Source: Rhodopirellula islandica (GTDB lineage: Bacteria > Planctomycetota > Planctomycetia > Pirellulales > Pirellulaceae). Taken from it: DNA of 64,000 nt. Where the stretch lies: positions 248,001 to 312,000 of the forward strand of contig NZ_LECT01000015.1 of assembly GCF_001027925.1 (NCBI RefSeq). The letters run 5' to 3'. Made by a program: the position numbers and the translations under genes. Shown here piece by piece: positions 33,950-56,122 of this stretch. Below the pieces are notes generated by a model. The model was not told the origin of the DNA, did not search any database, and saw only the letters and a program-made list of their open reading frames with translations. Within the stretch, counting starts at the first letter, position 1. Every line of letters begins with the position of its first letter.

Positions 33950-33950
33950 C

Positions 33951-34380: not shown

Positions 34381-34410
34381 TACTGCCCCGCTCGGAGGAT
34401 TCGCAGGAAC

Positions 34411-36288
34411 TCAGTGAGCTTCGAGAGCTTCCCAGCGTTTGTAGGACTCGGCGAGCTCCGTTTCCTTGGCCTTCAGTTCATCGCTTTTGATCGCGATTTT
34501 GTCGCCGCCGGATTGGTAGAATTCTGGCGCGGCCATCTCTTCGTGGATGGCCGCGATTTCCATTTCGAGCTTTTCAATCTTCCCTGGCAACAGCTTCAAC
34601 TCGCGTTGTTCGTTGTAGGAAAGCTTGACTGCTTTCACAGAGGGATCCGCAGCAACACTGTTGCTGGCCGGGGGCTTCGACGTGGCCTTCTTGCCACTCG
34701 TTTTGGTTGTCCCCTGTTCAGCGCGTCTCCGCTTGGCGACCGCCTCCCATTCGTCGTAGCCACCCACGTATTCGTTGACGATCCCAGGATCCGAGTCGTC
34801 ATCGAACACCAATGTGCTGGTCACCACATTGTTCAAGAACGTTCGGTCGTGACTGACCATCAACAACGTGCCATCAAAGCCAACCAGTTGCTCTTCGAGC
34901 AGTTCCAACGTCTCGGCATCCAAGTCATTCGTCGGTTCGTCCAGCACGATGACGTTGGCAGGCTGGGTCATCAGCTTGGCCAACAAGGCACGGTTGCGTT
35001 CACCGCCGGAGAGAAACTTGACCTGCGTTCGGGCTCGTTCGGGAGTGAACAAGTAGTCCTGCAAGTACCCCATGATGTGCTTGGTGGCATTGCCGACCTG
35101 GATCTTGTCGCTTCCTTCGCCAACGTTTTCTTGGACCGTGAGTTCTGGATCCAATGTGTCACGCAATTGATCGAAGTAAGCGATCTTGAGATTGGTTCCC
35201 AGTCGAACCGTCCCGGAGGTTGGTTGCAGTTTGCCCAAAATCAACTTCAGCAACGTGGACTTCCCGGCTCCGTTGGGACCAATGATTCCGATCTTGTCAC
35301 CACGCATGATCAGCGACGTGAAGTCGCGAATGATGACGCGGTCGGTTCCCGGGTAGGCGAACGAAACGTTGTCGAGTTTTGTGATCAAGGCCCCACCACG
35401 TTCAGCGACTTGCAGATTCAGCTTGGCCTTGCCCTCGAGACTGCGTCGTTGGTTGGCTTCGTTGCGCATCGTCTTGAGGGCTCGCACACGGCCTTCATTC
35501 CGTGTCCGCCGCGCCTTGATGCCCTGTCGAATCCAGACCTCTTCCTCCGCCAGCCGCTTGTCAAACAACGCGTTCTGCTTTTCCTCGGCATCCAATGCCG
35601 CGGCCTTGCGTTTGAGAAACGTTTGGTAGTCGCAGGTCCAATCGAAGAGTCGACCGCGGTCGATTTCCCAAATCCGATTCGCGAGCGACTGCAGAAACGA
35701 ACGATCGTGAGTGATGAACATCAACGTGCCCGACCAACGACTCAGGAAATCCTCCAGCCACAAGATCGACTGAATGTCCAGGTGGTTCGTTGGCTCGTCG
35801 AGGAGCAACATGTCCGGTTCGCTGGCGATGGCCCGGGCCAACAACACACGACGTCGCATCCCACTGGAAAGACTCTCGAACTCCGTCTCCGGGTCGAGGT
35901 TCATTCGGGTGAGCGTCTCCTCGATCTTTTGCTCGATCTCCCACTCTTCCCAGGTCCCATGATCGGTGGGCCCAAGGGCAGTCCCCAAGCCGGCGGTGGT
36001 CCCCATCTTGGAGAACTCCGCGGCGGGAAGCGTGATGATGTCGCGGACCGTGCCGCTCACGTTCTGGGGCACATCCTGAGTCAGCCGTGCCAAACGCACA
36101 TTCGGGTCCAAGATCACTTGGCCGTTGTCCGGTGTGACATCGCCTGACAACATTTTGAGCAACGTTGTTTTGCCCGCTCCATTGCGACCGAGCAACCCGA
36201 TGCGTTGCCCGCGTTCGATGCGTGCCGAGACCCCGTCCAGCAAAGCTGGCCCGCGAAAACCGATGGTCAAATCATCCAGTGAAATCAT
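34411..36288 (-). CDS. uup: ABC-F family ATPase (Uup/EttA type)
   Basis: ABC-F proteins are soluble twin ATPases that act on the ribosome or on DNA repair (Uup) and not in transport. The 625-residue protein has two nucleotide-binding domains: Walker A GRNGAGKTTLL and GPNGAGKSTLL, signatures LSSGMRRR and LSGGERNR, and Walker B MLLLDEPTNHLD and VIVLDEPTNDLD. A charged linker lies between them (about 230-320). After residue 540 a Lys/Ala linker and a C-terminal coiled-coil (LPGKIEKLEMEIAAIHEEM) match the Uup DNA-binding tail. Its start overlaps the stop of the next gene by ATGA. Confidence 0.93.
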   Translation of the reverse strand: MISLDDLTIGFRGPALLDGVSARIERGQRIGLLGRNGAGKTTLLKMLSGDVTPDNGQVILDPNVRLARLTQDVPQNVSGTVRDIITLPAAEFSKMGTTAGLGTALGPTDHGTWEEWEIEQKIEETLTRMNLDPETEFESLSSGMRRRVLLARAIASEPDMLLLDEPTNHLDIQSILWLEDFLSRWSGTLMFITHDRSFLQSLANRIWEIDRGRLFDWTCDYQTFLKRKAAALDAEEKQNALFDKRLAEEEVWIRQGIKARRTRNEGRVRALKTMRNEANQRRSLEGKAKLNLQVAERGGALITKLDNVSFAYPGTDRVIIRDFTSLIMRGDKIGIIGPNGAGKSTLLKLILGKLQPTSGTVRLGTNLKIAYFDQLRDTLDPELTVQENVGEGSDKIQVGNATKHIMGYLQDYLFTPERARTQVKFLSGGERNRALLAKLMTQPANVIVLDEPTNDLDAETLELLEEQLVGFDGTLLMVSHDRTFLNNVVTSTLVFDDDSDPGIVNEYVGGYDEWEAVAKRRRAEQGTTKTSGKKATSKPPASNSVAADPSVKAVKLSYNEQRELKLLPGKIEKLEMEIAAIHEEMAAPEFYQSGGDKIAIKSDELKAKETELAESYKRWEALEAH

Positions 36289-39909: not shown

Positions 39910-41856
39910 ATGTTCCCAGCGATCTCGCTTCTCCGTACTCCACTGTGCTGCGCCGTTTTTCTCGCGGTCGTCTCGGTGCCAACGCTCTCGTTCTCGGACG
40001 ATGATCCGTTCGCCAAATGGCGAAAACACTACCAAGAGGCAATCTATCCGATTTTGGATCAGGCCTGTTCCGAGTGCCATCGGGGCGCAGACTCGGAAGG
40101 TTTTGACATGGATCAATTCGGTGCAGCAAAAGATCTGCAGAAGAACGCGACGGTTTGGGAAGAAGTCGCCAAGCGAGTTCGGCTGAATGAGATGCCGCCC
40201 GAAGGCAGCCCGCAACTCAACGACCAGCAAAAGGCACTTGTTCACCGCTGGTTTGATTCGCGACCGGATGACAACGAGTGTGCCAAGTTGGCCAACGAAG
40301 AAACTCAGGCTTGGTACCGCGGCGTCGTGATGAGCCGTCGTTTGACGCGAACCGAATATCTCAACGCAATCCGTGACTTGGTCAGAATGCCAGTCGATGA
40401 GTCGTTGGAGGTTCCTTCGGATGGTTCGGGCGGCGAAGGGTTTGACACCGCCGGCGATGCGCTCTTCACATCAGCTTTGCACATCGAACAGTACCTCGCC
40501 GTTTCCAACCAAGTCATCCAAGACGCCATGCAATCGGGCGGCGACACTTCGCTGGCCAGCCGTCTGCTGAACACCGTTTCGAACGAAGGTGACGCTCGGG
40601 AAGCAATGGAGCAGTTCGCCCGGCGAGCATGGCGACGGCCCGTCGAGACTTCGGAGGTCGATCGATTGACGACGCTGATGAATGCCTCCCAGCAATCTGG
40701 GCTCTCGATTCGCGAAGCCACGGCGGATGCTTTCAAAGCCATCCTCGTATCACCCAACTTTTTGTTCGTGGTCGAAACGGAATCCGAAGCCGGTGGCGTG
40801 CAACCGTTGACGCCGCATCAACTGGCCACGCGGTTGGCTTTGTTTTTGTGGTCGTCTGTCCCCGATGAAACATTGATGAAGGCTGCGGACGCCAATGAAC
40901 TGGCAACGGACGAACAGATCCTCACTCAGATGCACCGGATGCTCGCCGATGGACGCTCGCGAGCCCTGGGCGAAAACTTTGGTTTGCAATGGTTGGGGCT
41001 TTCGCAATTCGAAGGCGAATCCAAACCGGACGCGAACTTGTTCCCGGACTTCGACGAACGCTTGGCCGCCGCGATGCGAGAAGAAGCCGTGCGAACGGTC
41101 TGGAATGTGTTTCGTGATGATCGGCCGCTGATGGAATTGATTGACGCAGACTCCATTCATGCCAATGCAACCCTCGCGTCCTACTACGGACTGGATGTTT
41201 CCGATCCAGAGCTGAAGCAGACCGATGACTCAGAGACCTGGCAACGCATCCCACTGACCGATCGTCGGCGAGGCGGCGTGATCACGCTTGCCGCTGTGCT
41301 GACCCGATCGTCCTACGGTCATCGCACCAGCCCCGTGCTGCGTGGTCGCTGGGTTCTGGAAGAGGTGTTGGGCGGGCGCGTGCCACCTCCGCCACCAGGC
41401 GTGCCAGCACTGGAAGAAGCAGAAGCGGACCACGCCGCGACGCTTCGAGAACAACTGGAAATCCACCGCAAGAACCCTCAATGCGCGGCGTGTCACAACC
41501 GCATGGATCCGATTGGTTTTGGGTTGGAAAACTTCGATGCCATCGGGCGTTGGCGGACCGAGCAAGACGGTCTCGCCATCGACTCCAGTGGGAAACTGCC
41601 ATCGGGGGAAACGTTCTCCGGCCCCGAGGAACTGAAGCAACTGCTGCTGCGGCGAAGCGGAGAATTCAAGAAGCACTTTGTCAAAAAGCTGTATGGCTTC
41701 GCTCTCGGACGATCCCTCAACAAATTTGACAACTGCGTGGTCGATGAATGCTTGGAAGCACTCGACGAAAACGATCAACGCGCCACCGTGGTGCTGGAAA
41801 CGATTGTGACCAGCTACCCATTCCGAAACCGTTATTTCAAACCCGCCACCCCTTGA
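39910..41856 (+). CDS. DUF1592/DUF1588-type secreted cytochrome
   Basis: The ATG at 39910 starts a signal peptide (to about LSFSDD) on a 648-residue protein. A first c-type heme site CSECH (53-57) lies in the N-terminal PSD1-like part. The DUF1587/1592/1588/1585 series follows: [34 protein letters not shown]-like text and [27 protein letters not shown] in parts. A second heme site is [19 protein letters not shown]. These proteins are abundant in planctomycetes and always pair with DUF1552. Their role, presumably periplasmic oxidation, is unknown. Confidence 0.92.
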
Positions 41857-41873
41857 GCCCTTTTAGGTTGATC

Positions 41874-43268
41874 ATGCAAACGCCTATTCCTCGTCGTCGC
41901 TTTTTGCGTGGCAGCGGAGCCGTGCTGGGTTTGCCTTGGATGGCATCCATGGCAAAAACCATGGCTGGTCCTCGGCCCCAAGATTCGAGTTCAGCCGGCC
42001 GTTCCGGTGACGAACCGCAACCGCCGCTTCGCACTGCATTTCTGTACTTCCCCAACGGTGTTTGGGAAAAGGACTGGGTGCCTGGAACCGAAGGAGCCGA
42101 CTACGAGTTGTCACCGTCACTTGAACCGCTGGCGGACTTGAAAGATGACTTCCTGGTGTTGTCAGGGCTCGACAAAAAACACTCGCACGGCGGCGATGGG
42201 CACTACGCCAAAACGGCCAATTACCTGACTGGCATGCCGGTTGCCAAAACGACCGGAAAAGACATCAGCAGCGGTGGTGTTTCCATCGACCAATTGATCG
42301 CTGCCAAAGTCGGCAATCAGACACCGTTGCCCTCATTGGAATTAGGCATCGACCCGGTGATCAGCGGTATCGACAGCAACGTTGGCTACACCCGTTTGTA
42401 TGGCTCGCACATTTCGTGGCAGTCACCGACTCGCCCCGTCGCGAAAGCCATCAACCCGCGAGTCGTCTACGAACGTTTGTTTGGCAAGCGAATGAAGACG
42501 AGCACCCCCGAGGCTCGTTCCTACCAGAACCTGCTGGACTACGTTTTGGAGGACGCCCACCGCGTCCGTAGCAAACTCAGCCGTGACGACCAATTCAAGA
42601 TGGACGAGTACCTCGACTCCGTCCGCGAAGTGGAAAAGCGAATTGAATTTGCCACGCGTGACCAAAGTCATCGCGAACGTTACGAAGCCGAACGAGATCG
42701 CATCGCTGACGGGCACGCAATGGAGATTCCCGAAACGGGAACGCCGGGTGACTTCCGCGAGCACATCGATCTGATGCTGGACATGATGGTGCTCGCTTTC
42801 CAAACCGATTCGACTCGCGTCGCGTCGTTCATGTTCGCCAACGACGTGTCAGGCCGTTCGTTCAGCTTCCTCGACGGAGTCAATGGCGGGCACCATGAGC
42901 TTTCGCACCACGAGAACAAAGAGGAAAAGATCGCTCAGTACCAACTCATCAACCGTTGGCACACGGAGCAATTCGGCCGCATGCTGCGAAAAATGAAAGC
43001 AATCCAGGAAGGCGATTCGACGCTGCTCGACAACAGCATGATCCTGTTCGGCAGCAGCTTCTCCGACGGCAACCGCCATGACCCTGACAACCTGCCATTG
43101 TTGCTGGCCGGTCGCGGCGGCGGCACGATCCAGCCCGGTCGTCACATCGCTGCCAAAGGCCAAGTCCCCGTCTGCAACTTGTATCTGTCGATGGCCAAAC
43201 GCTACGGATTGGACCTCGAACGATTCGGCGACAGCGAACACGAACTGACCGAACTGGCAGGCGCCTGA
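41874..43268 (+). CDS. DUF1552 family Tat-exported protein
   Basis: The start at 41874 lies 17 bases after the DUF1592 stop and gives 464 residues. The N-terminus PRRRFLRGSGAVLGLPW is a Tat signal, implying export in folded form, perhaps with a cofactor. The rest is one DUF1552 domain with LYFPNGVWEKDWVP, SGLDKKHSHGGDGHY and NNSMILFGSSFSDGN-like segments (DNSMILFGSSFSDGN). It resembles sulfatase/DUF1501-type folds. It is the fixed partner of the upstream cytochrome, and the two are surely co-transcribed. Confidence 0.92.
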   Translation: MQTPIPRRRFLRGSGAVLGLPWMASMAKTMAGPRPQDSSSAGRSGDEPQPPLRTAFLYFPNGVWEKDWVPGTEGADYELSPSLEPLADLKDDFLVLSGLDKKHSHGGDGHYAKTANYLTGMPVAKTTGKDISSGGVSIDQLIAAKVGNQTPLPSLELGIDPVISGIDSNVGYTRLYGSHISWQSPTRPVAKAINPRVVYERLFGKRMKTSTPEARSYQNLLDYVLEDAHRVRSKLSRDDQFKMDEYLDSVREVEKRIEFATRDQSHRERYEAERDRIADGHAMEIPETGTPGDFREHIDLMLDMMVLAFQTDSTRVASFMFANDVSGRSFSFLDGVNGGHHELSHHENKEEKIAQYQLINRWHTEQFGRMLRKMKAIQEGDSTLLDNSMILFGSSFSDGNRHDPDNLPLLLAGRGGGTIQPGRHIAAKGQVPVCNLYLSMAKRYGLDLERFGDSEHELTELAGA

Positions 43269-43283
43269 TTCACCCCCAGCACC

Positions 43284-43891
43284 GTAGCCGGATTCGCCAA
43301 GAATTCGGATGCGTCCCAACTGAAACATCTGAATCCAGCCGAAACCAGCCACATACACTTCCGTAGGCCAGGTCTCACCTGGCAACCAAGCCGATGCTTT
43401 GGAACAAAGCGAGGCGATTTGTCATTCATCCGCGAGTTCGCGAGGCCCCGTCCGATCACCCAGCCAGGTGGAACCTGGCCTACGTCGACTCACCGTCGCC
43501 GCAGTCGCCAAGAATGCGGACGCGTTCCAACAGAAACTGGCGAATCCAGCCACATGCATTCGCGTAGGCCAGGTCTCACCTGGCAACCAAGCCGATGCTT
43601 TGGAACAAAGCGAGACGATTTGCCATTCATCCGCGAGTTCGTGAGGCTCCGTCCGATCACCCAGCCAGGTGGAACCTGGCCTACGTCGACTCACCGTCGC
43701 CGCAGTCGCCAAGAATGCGGACGCGTTCCAACAGAAACAGCCGAAACCAGCCACATACACTTCCGTAGGCCAGGTCTCACCTGGCAACCAAGCCGATGCT
43801 TTGGAACAAAGCGAGGCGATTTGTCATTCATCCGCGAGTTCGCGGAGCTCCGTCCAGTCACCCAGCCAGGTGGAACCTGGCCTACGTCGAC
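43284..43891. repeat. Array A: three tandem 201-bp hairpin repeat units (family A)
   Basis: GTAGGCCAGG begins at 43363, 43564 and 43765, an exact 201-base period. Each unit has a linker (GCCGGATTCGCCAAGAATTC region) and a core of about 128 bases with four small perfect stems: CCAGGTctcACCTGG, GCTTTGgaaCAAAGC, a TCCGCGAgtTCGCGGA-type stem, and CCAGGTggaACCTGG. The two outer stems, GTAGGCCAGGTCTCACCTGG and CCAGGTGGAACCTGGCCTAC, are inverted copies of each other. The array fills the space between two convergent genes. Confidence 0.92.
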
Positions 43892-43901
43892 CAATCTCGA
43901 A

Positions 43902-44810
43902 TCAGGGGGCTCCGTCTTTGGGATCGATCAGACTGCGGAACAACTCGCCATCGACGCTGGACGTGAGGAACTCCGTCGATCCATCCAACCGAGAAAACAG
44001 GGCGCCGCCTGGGTGAGCTGATCCCCAGTTGTCCATGTAACGCGCGCCGGGGCCATCTCGTTCGATCAACAAACCACTTCGAACGGTTCCGTTGCTACCG
44101 CCACTGAAGATCGGTTCGTCGTAATACCAACTCGTTTCCGTTTGAACGGTCGGGTCAAACGCTTTCTCCCCCGTCCCCAACGTGTTGCTCAGTCCGTCTG
44201 CAATCGCACTGAGGCGCTGAGCGTCAGGGAAGTTCAACATCACCCGACGGTTGCCAGCGTAATCTGTCTTGGCCCACGCCCGACCGCCCGCGGAATACCT
44301 GCCATACGAATCATCTCGCGGGACCAGTGGTTCTCCTCGCGAGCGACTGGGGCAACGGAAGAGCGGCCCAGCGGATTCGACCTGAACGTTCTGGTACGCT
44401 TCCCCTTGTTCCAGCGATGGCAGGATCGCATAGGCCCAGCACCCCGTTTGCTGTGTCGGCGAGGCTCCCGGTTGGCCGACTCCCCACCAAAATTGGCGGT
44501 CAACCGCAAAGGTATAGGTGCCAATCCGAATCGGTTTGCCCGACGCTGACACGACGGTGCACTTGCCATCATCACCGCCATTGCTGGGAAGGTACTCATG
44601 CTTGGCAGCGTGCATTTGAATGCCGAGTGCAAGTTGCCGTTGTTGATTCATGCACTGAGTCCGCCGGGCTGACTCACGTGCGTTCTGAACCGCCCCCGTG
44701 AACAACGACACCAGCAACCCTATGATCGCCAATACGATCAACAGTTCGATCAAGGTAAAGCCGCGGCGAACGTTCGTGATGCGTCCCGGTTCGAAATAAG
44801 ATTGGTTCAT
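43902..44810 (-). CDS. DUF1559 family prepilin-like protein
   Basis: The 302-residue protein has a prepilin leader VRRGFTLIELLIVLAIIGLL, then VQNARESARRTQCMNQQRQLALG, the DUF1559 start. It ends with WGSAHPGGALFSRLDGSTEFL in place of the usual HPGG...DGS segment. It is shorter than the copy at 10197. It is the last gene of a leftward cluster, 29 bases after the GT39-like gene, and its stop lies ten bases from repeat array A. Confidence 0.88.
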   Translation of the reverse strand: MNQSYFEPGRITNVRRGFTLIELLIVLAIIGLLVSLFTGAVQNARESARRTQCMNQQRQLALGIQMHAAKHEYLPSNGGDDGKCTVVSASGKPIRIGTYTFAVDRQFWWGVGQPGASPTQQTGCWAYAILPSLEQGEAYQNVQVESAGPLFRCPSRSRGEPLVPRDDSYGRYSAGGRAWAKTDYAGNRRVMLNFPDAQRLSAIADGLSNTLGTGEKAFDPTVQTETSWYYDEPIFSGGSNGTVRSGLLIERDGPGARYMDNWGSAHPGGALFSRLDGSTEFLTSSVDGELFRSLIDPKDGAP

Positions 44811-44839
44811 GGCAAGTCCTATCGGATTGGCGGAACGGA

Positions 44840-46642
44840 TCAGTGGTCGATTCGGAAAAGAAGGTGGCTTGCGCCGATGGATTCAATGGGCTCCGCTGGG
44901 AGCGAGTTCAGAAGACTTGGATTGCGAGAAAGATCTGATTGACTGACGATCAGCCACGGTTGATCATCGTCGTTGTACCGGGCCAACGCTGCAAATTCTG
45001 GATAGGCTTCTCGAACCCCCATGCCGAGCCCTGTGCTGGAAATCAACTTCAGTGGGCGATGCTGTGGATGGGTCGCGACCCAATGAGCGACCAAATCATT
45101 GTCCTGGCCCCAATCGGTGGCGTCATTGAATAGATGCAAGTGCCCCCTGTCGGTCCCACCCGAAACCACATTGAAGGCGCCGAGCCAGTGTGGTGCGATG
45201 CAAATGGATGCAACGCTTGTCGCCATGAGTCCCAGCAGGATCGCAGCGTTGACGCTGCGACCTGTGTTTGAATCATGACAACGTGCCAGCGGTGCCACCA
45301 TCAACAGAAACAGGAAGGGATACAATCGCAGAATGTATCGGTGCTGCTGTGCGAACCCACTTTTGTAGGCGGTGATCTCAACCATTGCGAAAGCGATGCA
45401 GGCGATCACAACCTGATCCAACGAAACGAACCAGCGATGTTGACGATCGAGCGCCCGGCCGACCAGGTAGAGAAGACTGGCGGTGATCGCAACCAGAGTT
45501 CCTGTTGGCAATTTCACCAACATGGAATACAAGTAGAACCACCACCATCCGTGTGTCGTGTTCATCCCTGCGGCGTAGCTAGTGTTTCCTTCACGAAAGT
45601 CACTTTGTTGGCGATCCATGCCGTTGAGATACTGCTCCGGAACAGGACAAGGAATTCGTTCGAACCATGTGTTCGCAAATCGGGGTGCGATTTCACCTTT
45701 GGATTGGCCATACAAGGCATCTTCAGAGAACTTCAATTCTCCAAGCGGCTTTCCGATTCCATCAAAGCCATAGGGCACTGCGATGGTTAGCAGAGCGAGC
45801 ACCACGGCGAAAGACGCCTGACCTACGATGCGAGGTTGCCGAGCATTCCAACATCTCCAAATCACAAACGCGAGATAGATCGGGCACAACAACAATGCAG
45901 TGAATTTACAAGATAGAGCCAGACCAAAAGTCACACCGCCCAACGCTGCATCTTGCCACCGGAGCGATCTGATCCAACGACAGAAGCACAAACTACTCAC
46001 CAGCATCGCTGACGCCACCGCAATGTCATTGGTAATCAGCGAGCCATGAGCCAAGACCTGGGGCTGGAACACCCAGAAACCTGCCGCAACCAGTCCGATG
46101 GCGGGTCCGTATGGCATTGGATTGCTTCGGCTCGACTCATGTGATCTTATCCGGTAAAGGGACCGGCCCCAAAGAAACAGCGCTACCGTTGCAGCAACCG
46201 TGAACAGACCGACAAGAAGTCGTCCCCAAAGGAGGTGTTGCTGAAATTGTCTGGGAGAAGACGCATACAGCTCACGTCCATAGGGAAACTCGCTCCGGAC
46301 AGATGCGCCGCTCAATGCGCCTGACTTCAAGCTGTCGGTCATGTCAAAGGACGGCTCAAAATGCTCCAGTTCTACCCAACACAAGAAGGCTGGCAGAGTT
46401 CCGAGAGCCCGAACCAAAGGTGGATTGACGTTGAACGAGCGCAAATCCCCGTGCAACCAGTACTGAACTCCCGCATAGAAATGCCCATATTCGTCACTGA
46501 CAGGGGAAGACCGACAGGCGTGCCACCCCAATAACGTTGACTGGACCGCTATCAAAGCCACCAGGATTTTCACCTGGTTGTCGCTTACGAACGCTATCGT
46601 GGCAGACCACGACATCCAACAAAGCGGCGTCCTATTCCACAA
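44840..46642 (-). CDS. GT39/PMT-like integral membrane glycosyltransferase
   Basis: The 600-residue protein has about eleven to twelve membrane helices and the GT-C layout: an early periplasmic loop with VSDEYGHFYAG (Asp-Glu acidic pair after TM1) and NPPLVRALGTLPAFL, as in polyprenyl-phosphate-dependent glycosyltransferases of the PMT/ArnT group. A second loop contains GWWWFYLYSMLVKLPTGTL, and the soluble C-terminal part follows. The donor is probably a lipid-linked sugar and the acceptor unknown. The start overlaps the possible 71-aa gene by 11 bases. Confidence 0.75.
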   Translation of the reverse strand: MWNRTPLCWMSWSATIAFVSDNQVKILVALIAVQSTLLGWHACRSSPVSDEYGHFYAGVQYWLHGDLRSFNVNPPLVRALGTLPAFLCWVELEHFEPSFDMTDSLKSGALSGASVRSEFPYGRELYASSPRQFQQHLLWGRLLVGLFTVAATVALFLWGRSLYRIRSHESSRSNPMPYGPAIGLVAAGFWVFQPQVLAHGSLITNDIAVASAMLVSSLCFCRWIRSLRWQDAALGGVTFGLALSCKFTALLLCPIYLAFVIWRCWNARQPRIVGQASFAVVLALLTIAVPYGFDGIGKPLGELKFSEDALYGQSKGEIAPRFANTWFERIPCPVPEQYLNGMDRQQSDFREGNTSYAAGMNTTHGWWWFYLYSMLVKLPTGTLVAITASLLYLVGRALDRQHRWFVSLDQVVIACIAFAMVEITAYKSGFAQQHRYILRLYPFLFLLMVAPLARCHDSNTGRSVNAAILLGLMATSVASICIAPHWLGAFNVVSGGTDRGHLHLFNDATDWGQDNDLVAHWVATHPQHRPLKLISSTGLGMGVREAYPEFAALARYNDDDQPWLIVSQSDLSRNPSLLNSLPAEPIESIGASHLLFRIDH

Positions 46643-46847
46643 AGTCCGCTCCTACCTTCAAGGCTGCCGTCACCGTTTCAGTCTCCAATTTGATTTCTAA
46701 AGGAATTTGCTGAAAGACAAACCCTCTCCGTCGAACGTTGTCGTTGAGTCGGACGCGAAGTGCGAAGTCCGCAATCCCGGAATTCGTCTCCACGTCAACC
46801 AACAGCAAGAAACACCTAGCAAGGAATCTATTTTCCAAAACCGCCAT
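46632..46847 (-). CDS. Possible 71-residue protein between paralogue and GT39-like gene
   Basis: An ATG at 46847 shares its A with the TGA of the upstream gene (TGATG), and the frame runs 71 codons into the next gene's start. The product MAVLENRFLARCFLLLVDVE... has protein-like composition (Leu, Val, Glu, Arg) and no motif. The tight overlaps at both ends favour a real coupled gene, but it has no ribosome-binding site of its own and no known homologue. It could be chance. Confidence 0.35.
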   Translation of the reverse strand: MAVLENRFLARCFLLLVDVETNSGIADFALRVRLNDNVRRRGFVFQQIPLEIKLETETVTAALKVGADFVE

Positions 46848-47947
46848 CAAAATGTCTCCGATCGTGGCCAAAATCGGTAAACGGCCATGCCAATGATAAG
46901 ACTCATTAGTCCTAGGTTGAGAAAGAGAAACCACGACGTTGTTGACTGTGGCGAATTGGCGCGAGCATTGGCCAAAGCATGCTGCTGAATCATTGCCAGT
47001 TGCATATCCGAATAGGGAACATGAAAGCGTTTCCCATCTTTGATACGCGCCCACTCAGTACCAGCCGGCCAGGGCGGAATCCACTCAAAGCTGTCAACGT
47101 CGATCTCACTAATGTCGAGCATTTCGATCGAGCAGATGTAACCCGATTTTCCATCGGGAGTGACAGCCCGGTACGTTGCCTTCTTGGGGTATCGAAAACC
47201 ATCGAACGTCATCAACTCTGAGATGTCGACCTGCAGTGGACCATCGGGATAGCTTTCCCGTCTCTCAAGGAGCAGGAGTTCCGGTTGCGAAGTGAACACG
47301 ACGTAGGATTGATCCCCTGGGTCGGTTGCTGACATTCGAATTGCTTTTGGATCGGCCTCGTGTTCGAACCATTCGGTTTGAAGCTTGTCGCCCATTGGAA
47401 CGAACTCAACGTCATTCGTTCGTTCAGTTCCATTGATCAAAGCAACATCGTTAACAAGAAGGCTGACGAGTGGGTCTTGATGAAAAGCAGGTAAGAGATG
47501 GCCAACGGAAGCATTGCCAAAAGAAGTCACTGCTTTCCTGCCTTCAAAGTCGAATAGCAACTTCCGAAGAAAACTGTGGCTGGCCCGTCCGTCGGTGCCC
47601 TCAAAATAGGTCAGCAACGGATCGTCATCGATGTGAGGTTCGCCCTGGTTCTTCTGATAGTGCATCAAACGAACCGGAATGTAGGAGCGATCTGGACTTG
47701 GCTTGCCAATGGCGAGCGTCCGCACGCCATTGGCAGCGATGTCCAAGTGCCCTGAGAAAAACGTCGCGCCACCGTGCTCGGTGCGGCTTTCAGTTTCGAT
47801 CGTGTACCGAAACTCTTTGCTGTAGAAACAAGTGCGAGGCACCGCCTTCGCACGACGCAGTTCGTCAGCACTCAATAGCCGGTCATCTGCGTTAGACGAC
47901 TGAGCCTGCGAGCGAGCCGGTGAAAGGCAAAGAAGAGTCAATAGCAT
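46847..47947 (-). CDS. Membrane-anchored hypothetical protein, paralogue 1
   Basis: I do not recognise the family. The start MLLTLLCLSPARSQAQ at 47947 begins directly in a signal sequence. The frame is open to 48286, but the extra N-terminus is read through a DNA repeat and is unlikely. A mature part of about 320 residues is rich in beta-strand-like text, and a single C-terminal helix (LFLNLGLMSLIIGMAVYRFW) ends in a basic tail. The product should be a periplasmic domain held by a C-terminal anchor. It is a tandem duplicate of the gene at 48302: a stretch of 75 residues (KEFRYTIETE to LTYFEGT) is identical, while other patches differ strongly. Confidence 0.75.
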   Translation of the reverse strand: MLLTLLCLSPARSQAQSSNADDRLLSADELRRAKAVPRTCFYSKEFRYTIETESRTEHGGATFFSGHLDIAANGVRTLAIGKPSPDRSYIPVRLMHYQKNQGEPHIDDDPLLTYFEGTDGRASHSFLRKLLFDFEGRKAVTSFGNASVGHLLPAFHQDPLVSLLVNDVALINGTERTNDVEFVPMGDKLQTEWFEHEADPKAIRMSATDPGDQSYVVFTSQPELLLLERRESYPDGPLQVDISELMTFDGFRYPKKATYRAVTPDGKSGYICSIEMLDISEIDVDSFEWIPPWPAGTEWARIKDGKRFHVPYSDMQLAMIQQHALANARANSPQSTTSWFLFLNLGLMSLIIGMAVYRFWPRSETF

Positions 47948-48086
47948 CAGACTCGCTCGGAGGCGTCTGGCGTACGGGAGCGTCTCGGGACTCCTGCGTC
48001 GAGCTTGCGATGACGGCCTCGTCCCGGGCGAATTTGCACCCAAGTTTCCGCAGAAGTTCTGTTGAGCAGTTTGGGGGCAGAACCAC

Positions 48087-48210
48087 GTAGGCCGGGTTTC
48101 ACCTGGCTCCCCCGCCGATGCTTTGGAACAAAGCGAGGCGGTTTGACCTGCGTTCTCGAGTTCGCATGGCTTCGTCCAGTCACCTCGCCAGGTAGAACCT
48201 GGCCTACGTC
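48087..48210. repeat. Diverged single family A hairpin element
   Basis: This copy begins GTAGGCCGGGTTTCACCTGG and ends CCAGGTAGAACCTGGCCTAC. It keeps the GCTTTGgaaCAAAGC stem, but the inner TCCGCGA stem is decayed. It lies in the 354-base gap between the two paralogues and is in the same orientation as arrays A and B. Nothing else is seen in that gap. Confidence 0.85.
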
Positions 48211-48301
48211 GGCTGGCGTACGACACCCAAGTCACCAAGCCACCCTGGACTTGGGCGTTGCGAGGAATCAATGGTTGGGTGCGCATGGTTGAATTACCCT
48301 T

Positions 48302-49435
48302 CTAATTGGATCGTGGCCAGAATCGATAGGCGACCAACCCGAGGATCACGACCACCAACCCGGCATTGAGATAGAAAAACTTGGGTGACTCTGGCGAAGG
48401 CGCATCCGCACGAGCATTGGCCAAACCGTGCTGCTGAATCATTGCCAATTGCACATCCGAATAGGGAACATGAAAGCGTTTTCTGTCCTTTTTCCGCATC
48501 CACTCCGTACCAGCAGGCCAAGCCGGAATCCATTCAAAGTGGTCAACATCGATCTCGCGAATGTCGAGCAATTCGACCGAGCAGATGTATCCGAATGTCC
48601 CATCCGGTGTGACCTCTCGATAGGTTGCCTTCTTGGGATATCGAAAACCATCGAACGTCATCAGTTCCGAGACATCGATTTGCAGTGGACCATCACGAGG
48701 CCTTCCTAGCACCTCCAGAGGCAAATACTCGGGTTCTGAGGTGCACACCGAATAGAACGGATCATCCGGATCAGTGGATGACATCCGAATTGCTTTTGGA
48801 TCCGCCTTGTGCTCGAACCATTCGGTTTGAAGTTTGTCGCCCATTGGAACGAACTCGAATTCTTCAGGTGGTTCACCCCCGATGATTGCGGAGAGATCGT
48901 TGACCAGAAGGCTGACGAGTGGGTCGTATACAAAAGCGGGGAGCTTGTACCCAACTGATTGGTTGCCATGCGAGGTTACTGCTTTCCTGCCTTCAAAGTC
49001 GTATAGCAACTTCCGAAGAAAACTTTGGCTGGCCCGTCCGTTGGTGCCCTCAAAATAGGTCAGCAACGGATCGTCATCGATGTGAGGTTCGCCTTGGTTC
49101 TTCTGATAGTGCATCAGTCGAACTGGAATGTAGGAGCGATCCGGACTTGGCTTGCCAATGGCGAGCGTCCGCACGCCATTGGCAGCGATGTCCAAGTGCC
49201 CTGAGAAAAACGTCGCGCCGCCGTGCTCGGTGCGGCTCTCGGTTTCGATCGTGTACCGAAACTCTTTGCCGTAGAAATAGGTGCGAGGCTCCCCCTTCGC
49301 ACGACGCAGTTCGTCAGCACTCAATAGCCGGTCAACTGCATTGGACGACTGAGCCTGCGAGCGAGCCGGTGAAAGGCAAAGCAACGCGAGCAACACCAGG
49401 CTCGCTTGGAGGCCACTGACGCACGATCGAACCAC
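48302..49435 (-). CDS. Membrane-anchored hypothetical protein, paralogue 2
   Basis: This is the tandem paralogue of the gene at 46847-47947. A GTG at 49435 is taken as start because it gives a normal signal peptide (VVRSCVSGLQASLVLLALLC); the frame is open to 49594 with other GTG/ATG choices. The protein ends in a helix LNAGLVVVILGLVAYRFW plus PRSN, as does its partner. Long blocks are identical to paralogue 1, whereas residues around VGYKLPAFVYD, EPPEEFEF and EYLPLEVLGRPRDG differ. No function is known. Confidence 0.75.
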   Translation of the reverse strand: MVRSCVSGLQASLVLLALLCLSPARSQAQSSNAVDRLLSADELRRAKGEPRTYFYGKEFRYTIETESRTEHGGATFFSGHLDIAANGVRTLAIGKPSPDRSYIPVRLMHYQKNQGEPHIDDDPLLTYFEGTNGRASQSFLRKLLYDFEGRKAVTSHGNQSVGYKLPAFVYDPLVSLLVNDLSAIIGGEPPEEFEFVPMGDKLQTEWFEHKADPKAIRMSSTDPDDPFYSVCTSEPEYLPLEVLGRPRDGPLQIDVSELMTFDGFRYPKKATYREVTPDGTFGYICSVELLDIREIDVDHFEWIPAWPAGTEWMRKKDRKRFHVPYSDVQLAMIQQHGLANARADAPSPESPKFFYLNAGLVVVILGLVAYRFWPRSN

Positions 49436-49784
49436 TCGACGATTCGGTCTTGTCACCTCGCCATTGGCCGGCAAGGACGATGGAAAATTCCCATTGCGAT
49501 CCGGCGCGATCGCACCATCAACCAGGAACAGACATCTCGCTGCGGGCATTCCGCCACCCTTTTTCGCGTCGACAGGAAGACAAGACTCCACCAAAGTCTA
49601 GAGAGGGGTGCACTCAACATGCAACCTGATGGCTGCAGATTTATCCGCAAGTTGGGTGGCTGGCCAGATTTAACAACACTCGCCACATCTCGCAGCGTCC
49701 CCCGCGACAGTCCCATCCGTGGCGAATGTGCATTGAAGTTCTGGAGGAGCACCAAGCAGGCCCGGAAAAGCGCACCGTCGCCGG
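49436..49784. other. Non-coding stretch upstream of paralogue 2
   Basis: These 349 bases precede the paralogue 2 start and reach repeat array B. The upstream part (49436-49594) is open in the paralogue frame and may contain its real start. The rest shows no gene, hairpin or clear promoter. Confidence 0.4.
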
Positions 49785-50612
49785 ATTCGCCAAGAATTCG
49801 GACGCGTTCCAACTGAAACATCTGAATTCCGGCGAATTCAGCTACATGCATTCACGTAGGCCAGGTCTCACCTGGCAACCAAGCCGATGCTTTGGAACAA
49901 AGCGAGGCGAGTTGTCATTCATCCGCGAGTTCGCGAGGCCCCGTCCGGTCACCCAGCCAGGTGGAACCTGGCCTACGTTTCCTGCCGACCATGCCAGGCC
50001 CGGATGGGCCGACACAGCCATTGCCGGGGTCGTCAGGCCCCGGAAAAGCGTCCCCACAATCAAAGCCAAAACCCCGAAGGGGTGACACAGGATGTCCAAC
50101 TGTGCCGCCCCTCTCGGGGCTTGTTGCATTGGCCAACTCCTGCACCGGGGCCTGACGACCCCGGCAGTCATTCTGCCGACCCTCCGGGCCTCTCACGCAC
50201 CGTCGCCGGATTCGCAAAGAATTCGGACGCGACGCAACTGGAACACCTTAATTCCGGCGAATCCAGCCACATGCATTCACGTAGGCCAGGTCTCACCTGG
50301 CAACCAAGCCGATGCTTTGGAACAAAGCGAGGCGATTTGCCATTCATCCGCGAGTTCGCGGAGCTCCGTCCGGTCACCCAGCCAGGTGGAACCTGGCCTA
50401 CATTGACAGAAAACCGCCACGCAACAGGCCCGGATGGCCAACCGGAACATCTGAATTCTGGCAAATGCAGCTACATGCATTCGCGTAGGCCAGGTCTCAC
50501 CTGGCAACCAAGCCGATGCTTTGGAACAAAGCGAGGCGATTTGTCATTCATCCGCGAGTTCGCGGAGCTCCGTCCAGTCACCCAGCCAGGTGGAACCTGG
50601 CCTACGTCGACG
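49785..50612. repeat. Array B: three family A repeat units interrupted by another element
   Basis: Family A cores start at 49856, 50281 and 50485, each with the same linker (GCCGGATTCG...AATTC...ATGCATTC) as in array A. Units 2 and 3 are 204 bases apart; units 1 and 2 are 425 apart because about 220 bases, holding the family C element, lie between them. The array fills the space between paralogue 2 and nth and has the same orientation as array A. Confidence 0.9.
50022..50166. repeat. Family C inverted-repeat element inside array B
   Basis: TGCCGGGGTCGTCAGGCCCC (50022 on) is repeated inverted, 22 of 22 bases, ending at 50166. Between the arms are two more small stems, CCCCGAAGGGG and CCCCTCTCGGGG. 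CTGCCGACC occurs as a direct repeat outside the arms at 49982 and 50173. Confidence 0.85.
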
Positions 50613-50660
50613 TCTGCTGAATGCCGTCACGTATCGTCGATGAATGGGACGTGGGACAGG

Positions 50661-51314
50661 TCAGGGTTTGATCCAGGTCACTGGCTTGCGTCGGTTGGGA
50701 TACAGCTCGCGGCAGAGGTCACACACGCGTCCATCACAGCCTCTCGCGGTGCAGAATTCGCGACCGTAGAAAATGATCTGCAGATGCAACTTGTTCCAAG
50801 AGGACTCGGGGAACAAACTCTTCAGGTCTCGCTCGGTTTGCACAACGCTTTTGCCGCTGGACAAGCCCCATCGTTGGGCCAAACGATGGATGTGCGTGTC
50901 GACCGGAAACGCAGGAAAACCAAACGCTTGGGACATCACAACGCTGGCCGTTTTGTGACCGACGCCAGGCAACGCTTCCAGCTCTTCAAATGTGCTGGGG
51001 ACCTGACCTTCGTGCAGATCGATCAGCATCCCAGACAACTTCGCGAGGGCCTTGGCCTTTTGCTTGGACAATCCCAGCGGCCGGATGATCTCGAGGATTC
51101 CCTCTTCGCCAAGCTCACGCATCGCCGCAGGGGTTCCCGCGACCGAGAACAACTCTGGCGTGATCTCATTCACCTTTTTGTCGGTGCACTGAGCGCTCAG
51201 CAGAACGGCGACCAACAAGGTGAACTCGTCGGTGTGGTCCAGAGGAATTGGCGGGTCCGGGTAGAGCGTGTTGAGACGCTCCAGGACGATGGCGGCACGT
51301 TCTTTTTTCAACAT
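50661..51314 (-). CDS. nth: Endonuclease III (DNA glycosylase/AP lyase)
   Basis: Nth removes oxidised pyrimidines and nicks abasic sites. The ATG at 51314 gives 217 residues; a GTG two codons upstream is the alternative. The helix-hairpin-helix LPGVGHKTASVV carries the catalytic Lys (123 from the GTG), and FPVDTHIHRL carries the catalytic Asp141. The C-terminal cysteines read C-x4-C-x4-C-x2-C (CTARGCDGRVCDLC) in place of the family C-x6-C-x2-C-x5-C. The iron-sulfur cluster is therefore bound differently or is lost. It is convergent with nothing: array B lies downstream and cysE just upstream. Confidence 0.94.
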   Translation of the reverse strand: MLKKERAAIVLERLNTLYPDPPIPLDHTDEFTLLVAVLLSAQCTDKKVNEITPELFSVAGTPAAMRELGEEGILEIIRPLGLSKQKAKALAKLSGMLIDLHEGQVPSTFEELEALPGVGHKTASVVMSQAFGFPAFPVDTHIHRLAQRWGLSSGKSVVQTERDLKSLFPESSWNKLHLQIIFYGREFCTARGCDGRVCDLCRELYPNRRKPVTWIKP

Positions 51315-51320
51315 CGCCAC

Positions 51321-52442: not shown

Positions 52443-52904
52443 TCAGGGACCGATGCTGGGCGGGTTGTCCAGCAGGAAGTCGCGAGGACCGCGGTGCGTG
52501 TAGTAAGGGTACGCGACCTGGGCAGACGGCGCACCTGCTGTGAATGGCTGGCCTTGCATTTGAGCCGCCGCTCCGTGACCCAGCACGCCTGGGTTCATAT
52601 GCGAACTGTAGTCCAATCCGCCTTGTTGCCAACCGAGAGGACCGGCTTCACAGCCCGTCCGGCAACCGGTTTTGCAACCCATCAGCCGGCCGCGAGTTTT
52701 GCCCAGCAATCCGCCACTGCCATTGCGACCGCACGAGCCATTGCTGCAGGCACCGTTGCCACACGAGGAGTCACCACAACCGCAATCGCTTGAGGCGACG
52801 CCGCAGTTGCCAGTCGAACATCCGCCACGTGTATTGTGGTGGAGGCATCCGGTGCTGATCATCAGCATTCCGGCCATCGATCCGAGTAAGAGCCAACGAT
52901 TCAT
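52443..52904 (-). CDS. Cys/Gly-rich lipoprotein with GPRDFL motif
   Basis: Start MNRWLLLGSMAGMLMISTGC at 52904 gives a lipoprotein signal with lipobox STGC and a 153-residue protein. The mature N-terminus has about ten cysteines in Gly/Ser/Asn-rich text (SDCGCGDSSCGNGACSNGSC), then a basic GKTRGRLMGCKTGCRTGCEAG part. The C-terminus is YPYYTHRGPRDFLLDNPPSI, a tail I associate with planctomycete envelope lipoproteins. The role is unknown; structural or metal-binding functions are possible. It lies 115 bases upstream of cysE's far end, transcribed the same way. Confidence 0.75.
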   Translation of the reverse strand: MNRWLLLGSMAGMLMISTGCLHHNTRGGCSTGNCGVASSDCGCGDSSCGNGACSNGSCGRNGSGGLLGKTRGRLMGCKTGCRTGCEAGPLGWQQGGLDYSSHMNPGVLGHGAAAQMQGQPFTAGAPSAQVAYPYYTHRGPRDFLLDNPPSIGP

Positions 52905-53307
52905 TCCGAACCCTTCCATCCAATATGAATTGGGTGCCGAGCACAAAGGTCTCGACACGTGATACGAGTCTTTCTTTCACCTTTCGTTTCGGCCGTTGAC
53001 ACCGATTCGATGCACACAATCGCACCAACCGCGCCAGAAGTCGGAAGGGGTGGGCGGCAAGGTTTACCTAAACTAACAATTGGGGCTTCCTTTGCAGTTT
53101 CAGACCAAGCCGTTCCTGACAAGGTTCGCGGGCCCCGATGCCAAGCCCACCGCAAACGCCCCGGTTTAAGCGATTTCCAACTTGAATCAGCGTGCAAAAA
53201 CCGCGGGTCCGCGTTAGGCTGAGAGGTCCGGAGCATGGTCGCGGCTTTCATTTTGGCGACGACCGACGCATCCTCCGGACGCGAACCAACTCCAGCAGGC
53301 GAGGAAA
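52905..53307. other. Divergent intergenic region
   Basis: About 400 bases lie between the divergent lipoprotein and membrane-protein genes. No gene or strong hairpin is seen. GAGGAAA directly before 53308 is the ribosome-binding site of the rightward gene. Confidence 0.45.
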
Positions 53308-54198
53308 ATGAAGACCGAGGCGCCCGACGCACCGCCAACCGAATTCTCCGGCAATGAATTGGTTTCGAACCACTTCGCGTCGATCCAAGCGTTCGGAACG
53401 GATCTCGCGGAAGAACGCCCTGGCCGGGTGCTGAACTGGTTCCGGCAAGTGGTCACGCTACTCGGCATCGCCGCGTTTCATGGTTCGCTCAGTTTCATTG
53501 CCTGCCTGTGCGTTCTGCTGACCGTCCGGTTTGTGTTCTTCACCCAGCAAGTCGACGTGGTCGGAATCCTTTGGTTCGTTGCGGCCATCGCAGTCGGCGG
53601 TCTCATCGGCCTCCTGCAGCTAACGATTGTCTCGCGCTACGAAGAGTACCCGTTCCACCTGCTGTTGGCCCGCCGACTTCGCCGTGTCATCCAAGGACGC
53701 CAAAACCCGGTGGTCTCTCCCAGCGACGAGGGAGCCCGATTCTGCGAAATCGTCCCTCAAGAAAGATGGAAGCTTCTGCGCCTGGAAACCGCATCTGACC
53801 TCGCTTGGGTACGCATCGACCACAACGGCGTGTGGATGGAAGGCGATCGCAATCGATATCACTTTCCCCCCAGTTCGATCTTGGGGGCGATCCCTCAGTC
53901 GTTCACTCCGGCCGGAGGTTGGGCCCAACTGCACGCCGCGATGATCTACGTTCGCACCGAAAACGGTCCGGAAGAAATCCCCGTGGTCTACCGCGACTTT
54001 CGTTTTGCGGAAATGAACTCGGCTGAGCGCTGCCGTCAACGAGATGCAATGGTCGAAGCGATCTGCGAAATCGCTCGAGGCAGCGAGTACGAACCGATCT
54101 GCGTGCCAATGGACACCAACCCATCGCAAGCGTCCGACACACCAGCCAGCAACAATCCCTACGCTCCACCGCCGATGACGTCGCATACCGGAGCGTGA
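53308..54198 (+). CDS. Hypothetical two-helix membrane protein with NPYAPP tail
   Basis: I do not recognise this 296-residue protein. After a cytoplasmic N-terminus of about 45 residues come two membrane helices (about 46-75 and 83-108), then a soluble domain of about 170 residues with VRIDHNGVWMEGDRNRYHF and IYVRTENGPEEIPVVYRDF, a beta-rich pattern reminiscent of PH-like domains. The extreme C-terminus is Pro-rich with NNPYAPPPM. The start is preceded by GAGG. A tandem DNA repeat array follows its stop. Confidence 0.7.
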   Translation: MKTEAPDAPPTEFSGNELVSNHFASIQAFGTDLAEERPGRVLNWFRQVVTLLGIAAFHGSLSFIACLCVLLTVRFVFFTQQVDVVGILWFVAAIAVGGLIGLLQLTIVSRYEEYPFHLLLARRLRRVIQGRQNPVVSPSDEGARFCEIVPQERWKLLRLETASDLAWVRIDHNGVWMEGDRNRYHFPPSSILGAIPQSFTPAGGWAQLHAAMIYVRTENGPEEIPVVYRDFRFAEMNSAERCRQRDAMVEAICEIARGSEYEPICVPMDTNPSQASDTPASNNPYAPPPMTSHTGA

Positions 54199-54240
54199 AA
54201 GCAGTCATCGACGCTGGAAGAATCGAGACGTCGTCGAGAC

Positions 54241-55596
54241 TCACCGACATCGCCCCGGAGGGGCCGACGTTCTTAGCTCGGGGCGGAAGCCCCGAGAACG
54301 AGTGTGAAAATCAAACGGTCGCCCCGGATGGGGCCGGCGTGGAAGATGCCGAGTTGTTGTGCCGCGTGACGCCAGCGGTTGGAATTGGACAGGGTCGCGA
54401 TGAGGCTTGGCATTTGAGGGCTGCCCGACGGAACAGTTGGGGACAACTGTTCTACTCTGGTGCAATGCATTTCTACGCGTACGAGACTCACCGACATCGC
54501 CCCGGACGGGGCCGGCGTTCTTAGCTCGGGGTGGAAGCCCCGAGAACGAGTGTGAAAAACAAACGGTCGCCCCGGACGGGGCCGGCGTGGAAGATGCCGC
54601 GTTGTTGTGCCGCGTGACGCCAGCGGATGGAATTGGACTGGGTCGCGATGAGGCTTGGCATTTGAGGGCCGCCCGACGGAACAGTTGGGGACAACTGTTC
54701 TACTCTGGTGCACTGCATTTCAACGCGTTCGAGACTCACCGACATCGCCCCGGAGGGGCCGCCGTTCTTAGCTCGGGGCGGAAGCCCCGAGAACGAGTGT
54801 GAAAAACAAACGGTCGCCCCGGATGGGGCCGGCGTGGAAGATGCCGCGTTGTTGTGCCGCGTGACGCCAGCGGATGGAATTGGACTGGGTCGCGATGAGG
54901 CTTGGCATTTGAGGGCTGCCCGACGGAACAGTTGGGGACAACTGTTCTACTCTGGTGCAATGCATTTCTACGCGTTCGAAGTTCACCGACATCGCTCCGG
55001 AGGGGCCGGCGTTCTTAGCTCGGGGTGGAAGCCCCGAGAACGAGTGTGAAAAACAAACGGTCGCCCCGGATGGGGCCGGCGTGGAAGATGCCGAGTTGTT
55101 GCGCCGCGTGACGTCAGCGGATGGAATTGGACTGGGTCGCGATGAGGCTTGGCATTTGAGGGCCGCCCGACAGAACAGTTGAGGACAACTGTTCTACTCT
55201 GGTGCACTGAATTTCTACGCGTTCGAAGTTTACCGACATCGCCCCGGAGGGGCCGACGTTCTTAGCTCGGGGTGGAAGCCCCGAGAACGATCGTGAAAAT
55301 CAAACGGTCGCCCCGGATGGGGCCGGCGTGGAAGATGCCGAGTTGTTGTGCCGCGTGACGCCAGCGGATGGAAATGAACCGGGTCGCGATGAGGCTTGGC
55401 ATTTGAGGGCTGCCCGACGGAACAGTTGGGGACAACTGTTCTACTCTGGTGCAATGCATTTCTACGCGTACGAGACTCACCGACATCGCCCCGGACGGGG
55501 CCGCCGTTCTTAGCTCGGGGTGGAAGCCCCGAGAACGAGTGTGAAAATCAAACGGTCGCCCCGGATGGGGCCGGCGTGGAAGATGCCGCGTTGTTG
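54241..55596. repeat. 5.5-copy tandem array of a 247-bp hairpin unit (family D)
   Basis: The phrase TCACCGACAT, or a one-base variant, recurs at 54241, 54488, 54736, 54983, 55230 and 55477, a period of 247-248 bases. Each unit carries four perfect or near-perfect stems: GCCCCGGAGGGGC, CTCGGGGCGGAAGCCCCGAG, GCCCCGGATGGGGC and AACAGTTGGGGACAACTGTT. Units differ at few positions, and the sixth stops after GCGTTGTTG. Open frames across the array are products of the repeat and not genes. Confidence 0.95.
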
Positions 55597-55658
55597 ACCC
55601 TGATCGTCGTGCCAGTGTTGTATTCCTTCGGAAGGCGATGGCGGCCTTCCTGACGCCA

Positions 55659-56039
55659 TCAGTGATCGTCCGTTTCGATTCGGTCGTCATCCGGAGTGGC
55701 GAATAATCCCCAGCAATACGCGGGGACGAGTCGGCCGGCAAACTTGTCATGCACAGACAACACCACGAACCAAATCAGCATCATCGTGCCAATCGGCGGT
55801 GTGAAATCAATGTACTTGTTTGCCCGCAGCCAAATCGGAATGACAATGCTAACGATCAAGACAACCGTCCATCTCCATGACTCTCTGCCCCAATGGCGAA
55901 TGGCGAGGTAGTTCCCGCAATGCTGGCAATGCCCTAGCGGGAACGCGAACCGCCAAAATCCAACCGGCCCCTCGCAAACCGGGCAATTGTGCGTCAGGTT
56001 CGCTGGCGCGGATTCAGGTGATTGATACGGATTGATCAT
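55659..56039 (-). CDS. Small zinc-ribbon membrane protein with NPYQSP start
   Basis: The start MINPYQSPESAP at 56039 gives 126 residues. Two CxxC pairs (CPVC and CQHC) form a zinc-ribbon-like module near the N-terminus, followed by two membrane helices (about 59-75 and 83-100) and an acidic tail ending ETDDH. The family is unknown to me. The N-terminal NPYQSP string also appears in many planctomycete membrane proteins. It lies just right of the family D array. Confidence 0.7.
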   Translation of the reverse strand: MINPYQSPESAPANLTHNCPVCEGPVGFWRFAFPLGHCQHCGNYLAIRHWGRESWRWTVVLIVSIVIPIWLRANKYIDFTPPIGTMMLIWFVVLSVHDKFAGRLVPAYCWGLFATPDDDRIETDDH

Positions 56040-56122
56040 GGCAGCTTGAGATGGCAAAGCACGAATCGTGGTTTGCAATCATAGCAGGCTGCACTGCAAG
56101 GCGGCGTTTCCGCTGACCGCCC

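Follow-up and report, generated by a model that had tools for sequence, protein, structure and literature searches.

Repetitive extragenic palindromic (REP) sequences tagged with GTAG have been reported in Planctomycetes, with Rhodopirellula baltica named and several REP families described, and many tyrosine transposases of R. baltica have flanking repeats; in Thauera, arrays of the GTAG-1 repeat flank gene clusters (PMC3733652). Tandem REPINs (REP doublets forming hairpins) undergo local amplification and deletion (PMC8049555). Here we analyzed a window of 64,000 nucleotides from the genome of Rhodopirellula islandica (7.43 Mb in 55 contigs, designated G000; the window is C15:248001-312000), in which two arrays of repeats, A and B, lie between a DUF1552 gene and the nth gene. 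The arrays are very probably REPINs of a GTAG-tagged REP family (family A) with a cognate REP-associated tyrosine transposase (RAYT) on contig C53, which would have spread the elements before they multiplied in tandem locally. GTAG repeats and RAYTs of R. baltica as well as tandem REPIN clusters are known already, and the present locus adds another case. Among the literature matches listed, from a library without most subscription papers, none names this locus or deletions at REPIN edges in Rhodopirellula.

The locus resembles the GTAG REPs and REPtrons of R. baltica in the tag, in stems of 6-9 bp and in head-to-head dimers 20-100 bases apart, as well as in structured spacers and tandem clusters that include flanking DNA; this comparison of family A and a second family, L, with the R. 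baltica families was made by description (PMC3733652). An alternating two-family array, sequence exchange between arrays A and B, and a junction at a REPIN edge go beyond the available part of that account. The preliminary description of the window took the tandem layout for a departure from REPINs, but tandem arrangement is known both for GTAG repeats and for REPINs (PMC3733652, PMC8049555). As in BIME-2 (bacterial interspersed mosaic element) of Escherichia coli, the tandem units consist of two opposed REPs and an inter-REP part, whereas here two unrelated REP families (L and A) alternate, and a third element replaces A in the congener G002 (PMC2817692). The arms of family A have a perfect 7-bp stem and a 3-base loop, unlike the bulged stem of E. 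coli REPs (PMC8266576). REP doublets acting as miniature mobile DNA are shared with the REPINs of Pseudomonas fluorescens, from which the present case differs by many tandem arrays with array-specific periods (PMC3116915).

Family A and its putative transposase

The two arrays of the same family and direction and the decayed copy between them, as reported preliminarily, were all located (Table 1), and the seven A-REPIN units of the window have one orientation. The A arm is a REP of 21 bases, in which GTAG is followed by a hairpin of seven perfect base pairs and a 3-base loop (GTAG-GCCAGGT-NNN-ACCTGGC), and the A core consists of two such REPs head to head. A whole-genome search, set beforehand as a test, has shown that the core also occurs elsewhere: it has 80 matches in G000, part of them arm-only, and there are 164 arms (77 + 87) at no more than two mismatches, the reversed-pattern control giving two. 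Membership among REPINs is well supported: two inverted REPs with a short spacer are repeated across the genome, the GT[AG]G tag stands at the foot of the palindrome, and relatives differ in sites and copy number, the direction (gain or loss) being partly resolved. The REPs also form mosaics with other motifs, often in tandem, as in BIMEs. The preliminary label of REPIN is thus upheld by the genome-wide copies, the head-to-head GTAG palindromes and a RAYT gene with the same arms.

This gene is absent from the window, as was stated preliminarily, and is located on another contig of G000, C53, which lifts the limit formerly put on the label; it was found by looking for a Y1 transposase gene flanked by the same arms. 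G000 contains eleven Y1 genes (PF01797). Same-family GTRG hairpins occur within 1.2 kb of three of them and are lacking at the other eight, one of which is at a contig start. The C53 gene adjoins dnaB and sits between copies of the same A-REPIN, that is, it is flanked in its own genome by the same REPs, as a cognate RAYT should be; REP pairs are found at the RAYT gene in E. coli as well (PMC6006769). Its protein matches E. coli TnpA_REP (4ER8; E 1.2e-40), with homology over residues 1-87 and 107-175 of 177, and the NCBIfam RAYT model NF047646 (170.8 bits at a cut-off of 80). The GTAG-recognition block is kept: residues W94, Q95, E100, H101 and R104 of TnpA_REP, which are discussed for GTAG recognition (PMC6006769), are identical in the alignment. 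The protein carries the motifs NHLH (HuH), WQPRFWEH..R and YVHWNP, in agreement with RAYT / TnpA_REP proteins; YVHWNP differs from YIYINP of E. coli, and the combination NHLH, WQ and YVHWNP has no exact row match in the RAYT class table (PMC6006769). The gene is present in G000 as one copy, two other matches having 23-24% identity. In P. fluorescens, REPINs usually have one RAYT per family. An IS200/IS605 insertion sequence was considered and rejected, since its transposase is expected in several near-identical copies and the C53 copy is single.

The best 80 of 105 RAYT relatives from a collection scan were analyzed for hairpins. At least two same-family GTRG hairpins within 1 kb were found at 40 of these loci and at least three at 23, whereas none of 400 shuffled versions of the middle 2.5 kb of such loci had two or more. 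Of the 49 Y1 loci found in six congeners, 28 were analyzed, and eight of these had at least two same-family hairpins.

These observations suggest a scheme in which the RAYT, as a HuH single-strand nuclease, would recognize every GTAG-tagged arm in its folded form and would have spread a unit of about 117-129 bases to tens of sites. The units would then have multiplied in tandem locally together with adjacent DNA, a step supported by comparison, and this co-multiplication would give each array its own period. Indeed, A-arrays of G000 have periods of 142 (C53), 147 (C26), 166-167 (C50), 172-174 (C41 and C12) and 201 bases (array A); pairs of A-REPINs are spaced by 313 (C54) and 367 (C23) bases, and array periods in the congener G004 are 152 and 235.

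The conservation of the arms was studied in 71 units (49 from G000, ten from G004, six from G007, five from G005 and one from G002) picked by loose arm patterns and the inner hairpin, many of which are near copies, so that the counts are not independent; a 72nd extracted unit (C6:24410), the right end of which is not an arm, was dropped, leaving 49 of 50 extracted two-armed units of G000. All seven stem pairs are formed in 70 of the left arms and 68 of the right; the GTAG head is present in 70 left arms, and the right tail is CTAC in 58 units and CGAC in ten. Pair 5 of the left stem is G-C in 44 units and T-A in 27, and in all those 27 the right arm has G-C. Such compensation inside one arm indicates that the single-arm hairpin is kept rather than a long arm-to-arm hairpin, and a long cruciform as the selected form is disfavored by the 27 units with the left arm alone altered; with 16 of them belonging to the C41 and C12 arrays, these cases are not independent, yet they are spread over two or more parts of the unit tree.

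Of the two perfect inner stems described preliminarily, the first (GCTTTG-GAA-CAAAGC) is general, being exact in 59 of 71 units; the second is a local feature, as a perfect stem of at least 5 bp occurs in nine of 17 units at this locus (five of seven in the window) and in seven of 54 elsewhere. Within the unit, conservation is highest in the inner hairpin next to the left arm (mean column identity 0.97, versus 0.62 in the middle). Together with the position of array A between two convergent genes and with 18 terminator-like sites in 43200-50700 against 8.3 expected, four of them being the inner hairpin, this could be explained by hairpins maintained for a function in RNA at the ends of genes, in transcription termination or protection of mRNA 3'-ends, their mobility belonging to the past. 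We consider this explanation improbable: the T-rich tail (ATTTGTCATT) is weak, the conservation is partly inflated because the hairpin itself and the arms were among the selection criteria, the GTAG head retained in almost all left arms is needless for a terminator, and seven congeners lack the family altogether.

Tandem arrays and gene turnover at the DUF1552-nth locus

Array A is a regular tandem with period 201 (43336-43891, 2.8 copies, 93% matches, score 1012 by Tandem Repeats Finder), as had been described; array B, also called tandem, is uneven, with steps of 425 and then 204 bases, because a different element of about 205 bases sits between its first two units. The spacer of the tandem unit (about 77 bases) is itself a head-to-head REP pair of family L, so that the unit is compound (L+A, about 200 bases); at this locus the co-amplified DNA would thus be the shorter L pair. 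The L arm reads GTNG-C[CT]GGATTC-GCCA(A)-GAATTC[AG]G, and the dimer mostly spans about 69 bases. Fifteen L dimers, part of them degenerate, were found in 37 stretches of G000, five of them at this locus, and stem pair 2 is C-G in 33, T-A in six and unlike in two of 41 arms. L heads number 196 in G000 and 273 in G002 (controls 6 and 4), and L matches are present in all 13 genus members, the lowest count being that of G008 (20 versus 10 in the control). The DUF1552-nth interval of G002 contains five L units (counted by eye) alternating with four family B elements, which are relatives of the element within array B; G002 thus pairs L with family B without A, which means that the two genomes have L in common and differ in what it is paired with.

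The interval varies between species, as comparison of relatives, proposed preliminarily, has shown for both copy number and position of A-REPINs. In G000 the order is DUF1552, array A (three units), DUF1559, glycosyltransferase, paralogue A, a single REPIN, paralogue B, array B (three units) and nth. G004 has array A (two units), DUF1559, a REPIN, one paralogue, a REPIN, a 7-kb module, array B (two units) and nth. In G005 the locus is split between two contigs: array A (one unit), DUF1559, a REPIN, one paralogue and the contig end; then a REPIN, the 7-kb module, array B (one unit) and nth. G011 has DUF1552, the 7-kb module and nth, with no A unit within and four REP arms past nth; in G002 the interval contains neither an A unit nor a cluster gene; and in G007 one unit next to nth is followed by the contig end. 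In G006 and G008, which have no A arms, the DUF1559-glycosyltransferase-paralogue cluster is on contigs other than that of nth, and G006 carries two tandem paralogues. In the other five congeners nth is present and no cluster was found in the stretches around it. The comparison thus supports turnover of genes at this locus from species to species.

One junction falls on a REPIN edge. The G005 sequence tracks the window to 44903 and then passes straight to the middle REPIN at 48085-48087, lacking a segment of 3.2 kb with the glycosyltransferase, except for its 3' end, and paralogue A. In G004 the left point lies elsewhere, at about 44820, and on the right the junction is at the same edge of the REPIN as in G005. 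The G000 and G005 REPINs at the junction place group together in the unit tree (98/83). Deletion is the simpler reading, since the cluster is contiguous in G006 and G008; alternatively, the segment may have been inserted in the G000 line. The junction could be due to the RAYT, to replication slippage or to homologous recombination. The one paralogue left in G004 and G005 has a mosaic structure, with the 3' end and downstream flank B-like, the 5' flank weakly B-like and about 600 middle bases 97-100% like paralogue A, probably due to gene conversion between the paralogues. The G006 copies are more alike each other than either window copy in seven of 11 coding blocks of 100 columns.

The preliminary description proposed that unequal crossover between A and B could delete, invert or amplify the 6-kb cluster. 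For arrays of the same orientation inversion falls away, as crossover would delete or duplicate. The orientation itself and the 94-100% identity of the units are suitable for such crossover, and the segment content does vary across G000, G004, G005, G002 and G011; so gene content changes and one junction lies on the middle REPIN, but no deletion or duplication ending in A and B was seen in the relatives readable across the locus. The predicted hybrid array, with the DUF1552 side joined to the nth side, is absent from G000, G004, G002 and G011, all read across the locus (G005 and G007, which break at contig ends, are uninformative), and G002 has L and family B units in place of A units. The tandem paralogues, once taken for a hint of array recombination, are poor evidence for it, as the pair also exists in G006 without any A-REP arms. 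Unequal crossover between A and B is therefore unlikely.

Exchange of another kind is suggested by the units. A3 and B3 of G000 are identical over 128 bases, the identity ending one base before and six bases after the REPIN core, and no array unit from another species exceeds 95% identity with those of G000, which indicates sequence exchange between arrays A and B in the G000 line. Of the 13 array units in the unit tree (six from G000, four from G004, two from G005 and one from G007), 11 form one clade (91/86, not starred); both array A units of G004 are outside it, one without a resolved place and one with another G004 REPIN. The tree is based on few columns, and 23 of its 66 inner branches are open. 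The array A and B units of G000 would accordingly represent one subfamily.

The same data bear on the possibility that the arrays arose here from local duplication and gene conversion alone, the RAYT having had no part. This is conceivable, if somewhat doubtful: the repeated unit takes in the L pair beyond the A core, the G000 units of both arrays share a clade, and the number of array A units decreases from three in G000 to two in G004, one in G005 and none in G002, but the numerous arms over many contigs and the RAYT with the same arms are left unexplained, and the A3/B3 identity stops close to the core edges. Local duplication and spread by the RAYT are compatible.

Arms and RAYT genes among relatives

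A arms were found in six of 13 genus genomes, G000, G004 (168), G007 (111), G002 (106), G005 (95) and G011 (58), and, at the same pattern, in none of the other seven, with reversed controls of 0-5. Of 47 genomes from outside the genus, 19 gave matches; in 18 of them there are one to three, about the level of the reversed control, and G032 has ten of the GTAGGTCAGG type. RAYTs of the C53 clade are present in G000, G007 (81%), G005 (75%), G011 (70%, split between two frames), G010 (59%) and G008 (48-49%). GTAG repeats flank all six, five being detected by the script and that of G010 by eye, and the REP varies together with the RAYT (GTAGGTCAGG..CCTGAC in G011 and GTAGGGCCGG..CCGGCC in G008).

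Several results weigh against spread by the C53 RAYT. The strict hairpin script gave zero or one hairpin at 40 of the 80 RAYT relatives, G010 among them, though its flanking REPs are visible by eye. GTRG hairpins are frequent in G000 in any case: at least two of one family were also found in six of 25 stretches of 2.5 kb from the window that have no RAYT; three of the six are array A, array B and the decayed copy. None of the 11 Y1 loci of G000 is flanked by L, and a single L-REP is in range at two of 31 tested Y1 loci (49 found in the six congeners). No RAYT of the C53 clade was found in G002 and G004, the arms of which are numerous; hence many arms persist without it. Finally, five isolated REPINs were traced by their flanks in five relatives, and two of these sites were aligned. 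At C26:93.1k an A-REPIN or part of it is present in G000, G004, G005 and G007 and absent from G002 and G011; C31:163.2k has one in G000, G002 and G005, two in G007, two partial ones in G004 and none in G011. Neither of the two aligned sites gave an exact target or a clean empty site, the REPIN flanks having changed too.

Both the DUF1552-nth interval and that on the dnaB side, which are bounded by REP clusters of family A, differ in gene content by species. On the dnaB side, REP clusters enclose a response-regulator/HD gene in G004 (L201, 3673-4845) where G000 has the RAYT, and in G011 an extra open reading frame (ORF) of 550 aa with an HEFGH motif (by eye) lies between REP clusters (L105, 4962-6649); one REP is left there in G002 and none in G005. 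The RAYT of G005 is away from dnaB, between two near-identical REPINs (L103, 7923-8045 and 8756-8878), as if moved together with them. These two loci are suggestive of REPIN edges shaping gene turnover. It is quite unlikely that the edges are active breakpoints, where RAYT nicking or fork stalling at folded arms would lead to one-ended deletions and gene exchange between arrays, the intervals being exchangeable gene slots.

A RAYT and its REPIN family are now given for a planctomycete, and the congeners form a natural series with the RAYT intact (G000, G005, G007), frame-split (G011) or missing (G002, G004) and the REP arms varying alongside. This series opens the questions of REPIN persistence after RAYT loss and of deletions caused by REPIN edges.

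Features of the window

The features of the locus are listed in Table 1. Paralogue A has an open frame (46847-48286) that extends across the decayed REPIN; with the upstream ATG as start codon, this repeat would become part of the protein. A structured RNA family and tRNA-linked integration were rejected as explanations, the window having no Rfam matches at gathering thresholds and neither a tRNA nor a tmRNA.

Table 1. Repeats and genes at the DUF1552-nth locus (window positions).
Feature	Position	Strand	Remark
DUF1552 gene	41748..43268	+	left neighbor of the locus
L-REPIN ahead of A1	43284..43352	+	second GTAG-type REP family, head-to-head dimer
A-REPIN unit A1	43363..43483	+	head-to-head pair of GTAG REPs enclosing an inner hairpin
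L-REPIN, A1-A2 gap	43495..43553	+	
A-REPIN unit A2	43564..43684	+	
L-REPIN, A2-A3 gap	43696..43754	+	degenerate
A-REPIN unit A3	43765..43885	+	same as B3 across 128 bases
DUF1559 gene	43902..44810	-	variable cluster
PMT-like membrane glycosyltransferase gene	44840..46642	-	only 3' end kept in G005
Paralogue A	46847..47950	-	start approximate
Single decayed A-REPIN	48087..48207	+	82% identity; left outer edge is the G005/G004 junction point
Paralogue B	48302..49450	-	start approximate
L-REPIN ahead of B1	49777..49845	+	
A-REPIN unit B1	49856..49976	+	
Family B element, B1-B2 gap	49990..50196	.	different, nested-palindrome element; nesting by eye
L-REPIN ahead of B2	50202..50270	+	
A-REPIN unit B2	50281..50401	+	
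Lone L arm ahead of B3	50451..50474	-	degenerate; by eye
A-REPIN unit B3	50485..50605	+	
nth (endonuclease III)	50661..51320	-	right neighbor of the locus; in 13/13 genus members

Other palindromes were seen in the window. The stretch 54234-55596 is a tandem array with period 247 and 5.5 copies, containing TTAGCTCGGGG..CCCCGAG palindromes that are close to the REP (GTAGCTCGGGGCGGAAGCCCCGAG) flanking a RAYT on contig C7 of G000. A further GTAG palindrome family (GTAGAACAGTTGTCCCCAACTGTT) occurs in 32500-35000 and 52500-57500, and this REP is also found twice near a Y1 gene of G007 (L185). On contig C1 of G002 (L206), three Y1 genes with equal scores lie about 1 kb apart (6437942, 6438942 and 6439936), the first of them with four GTAGCCATTGGC-type REPs nearby; this trio would be a tandem-triplicated RAYT.

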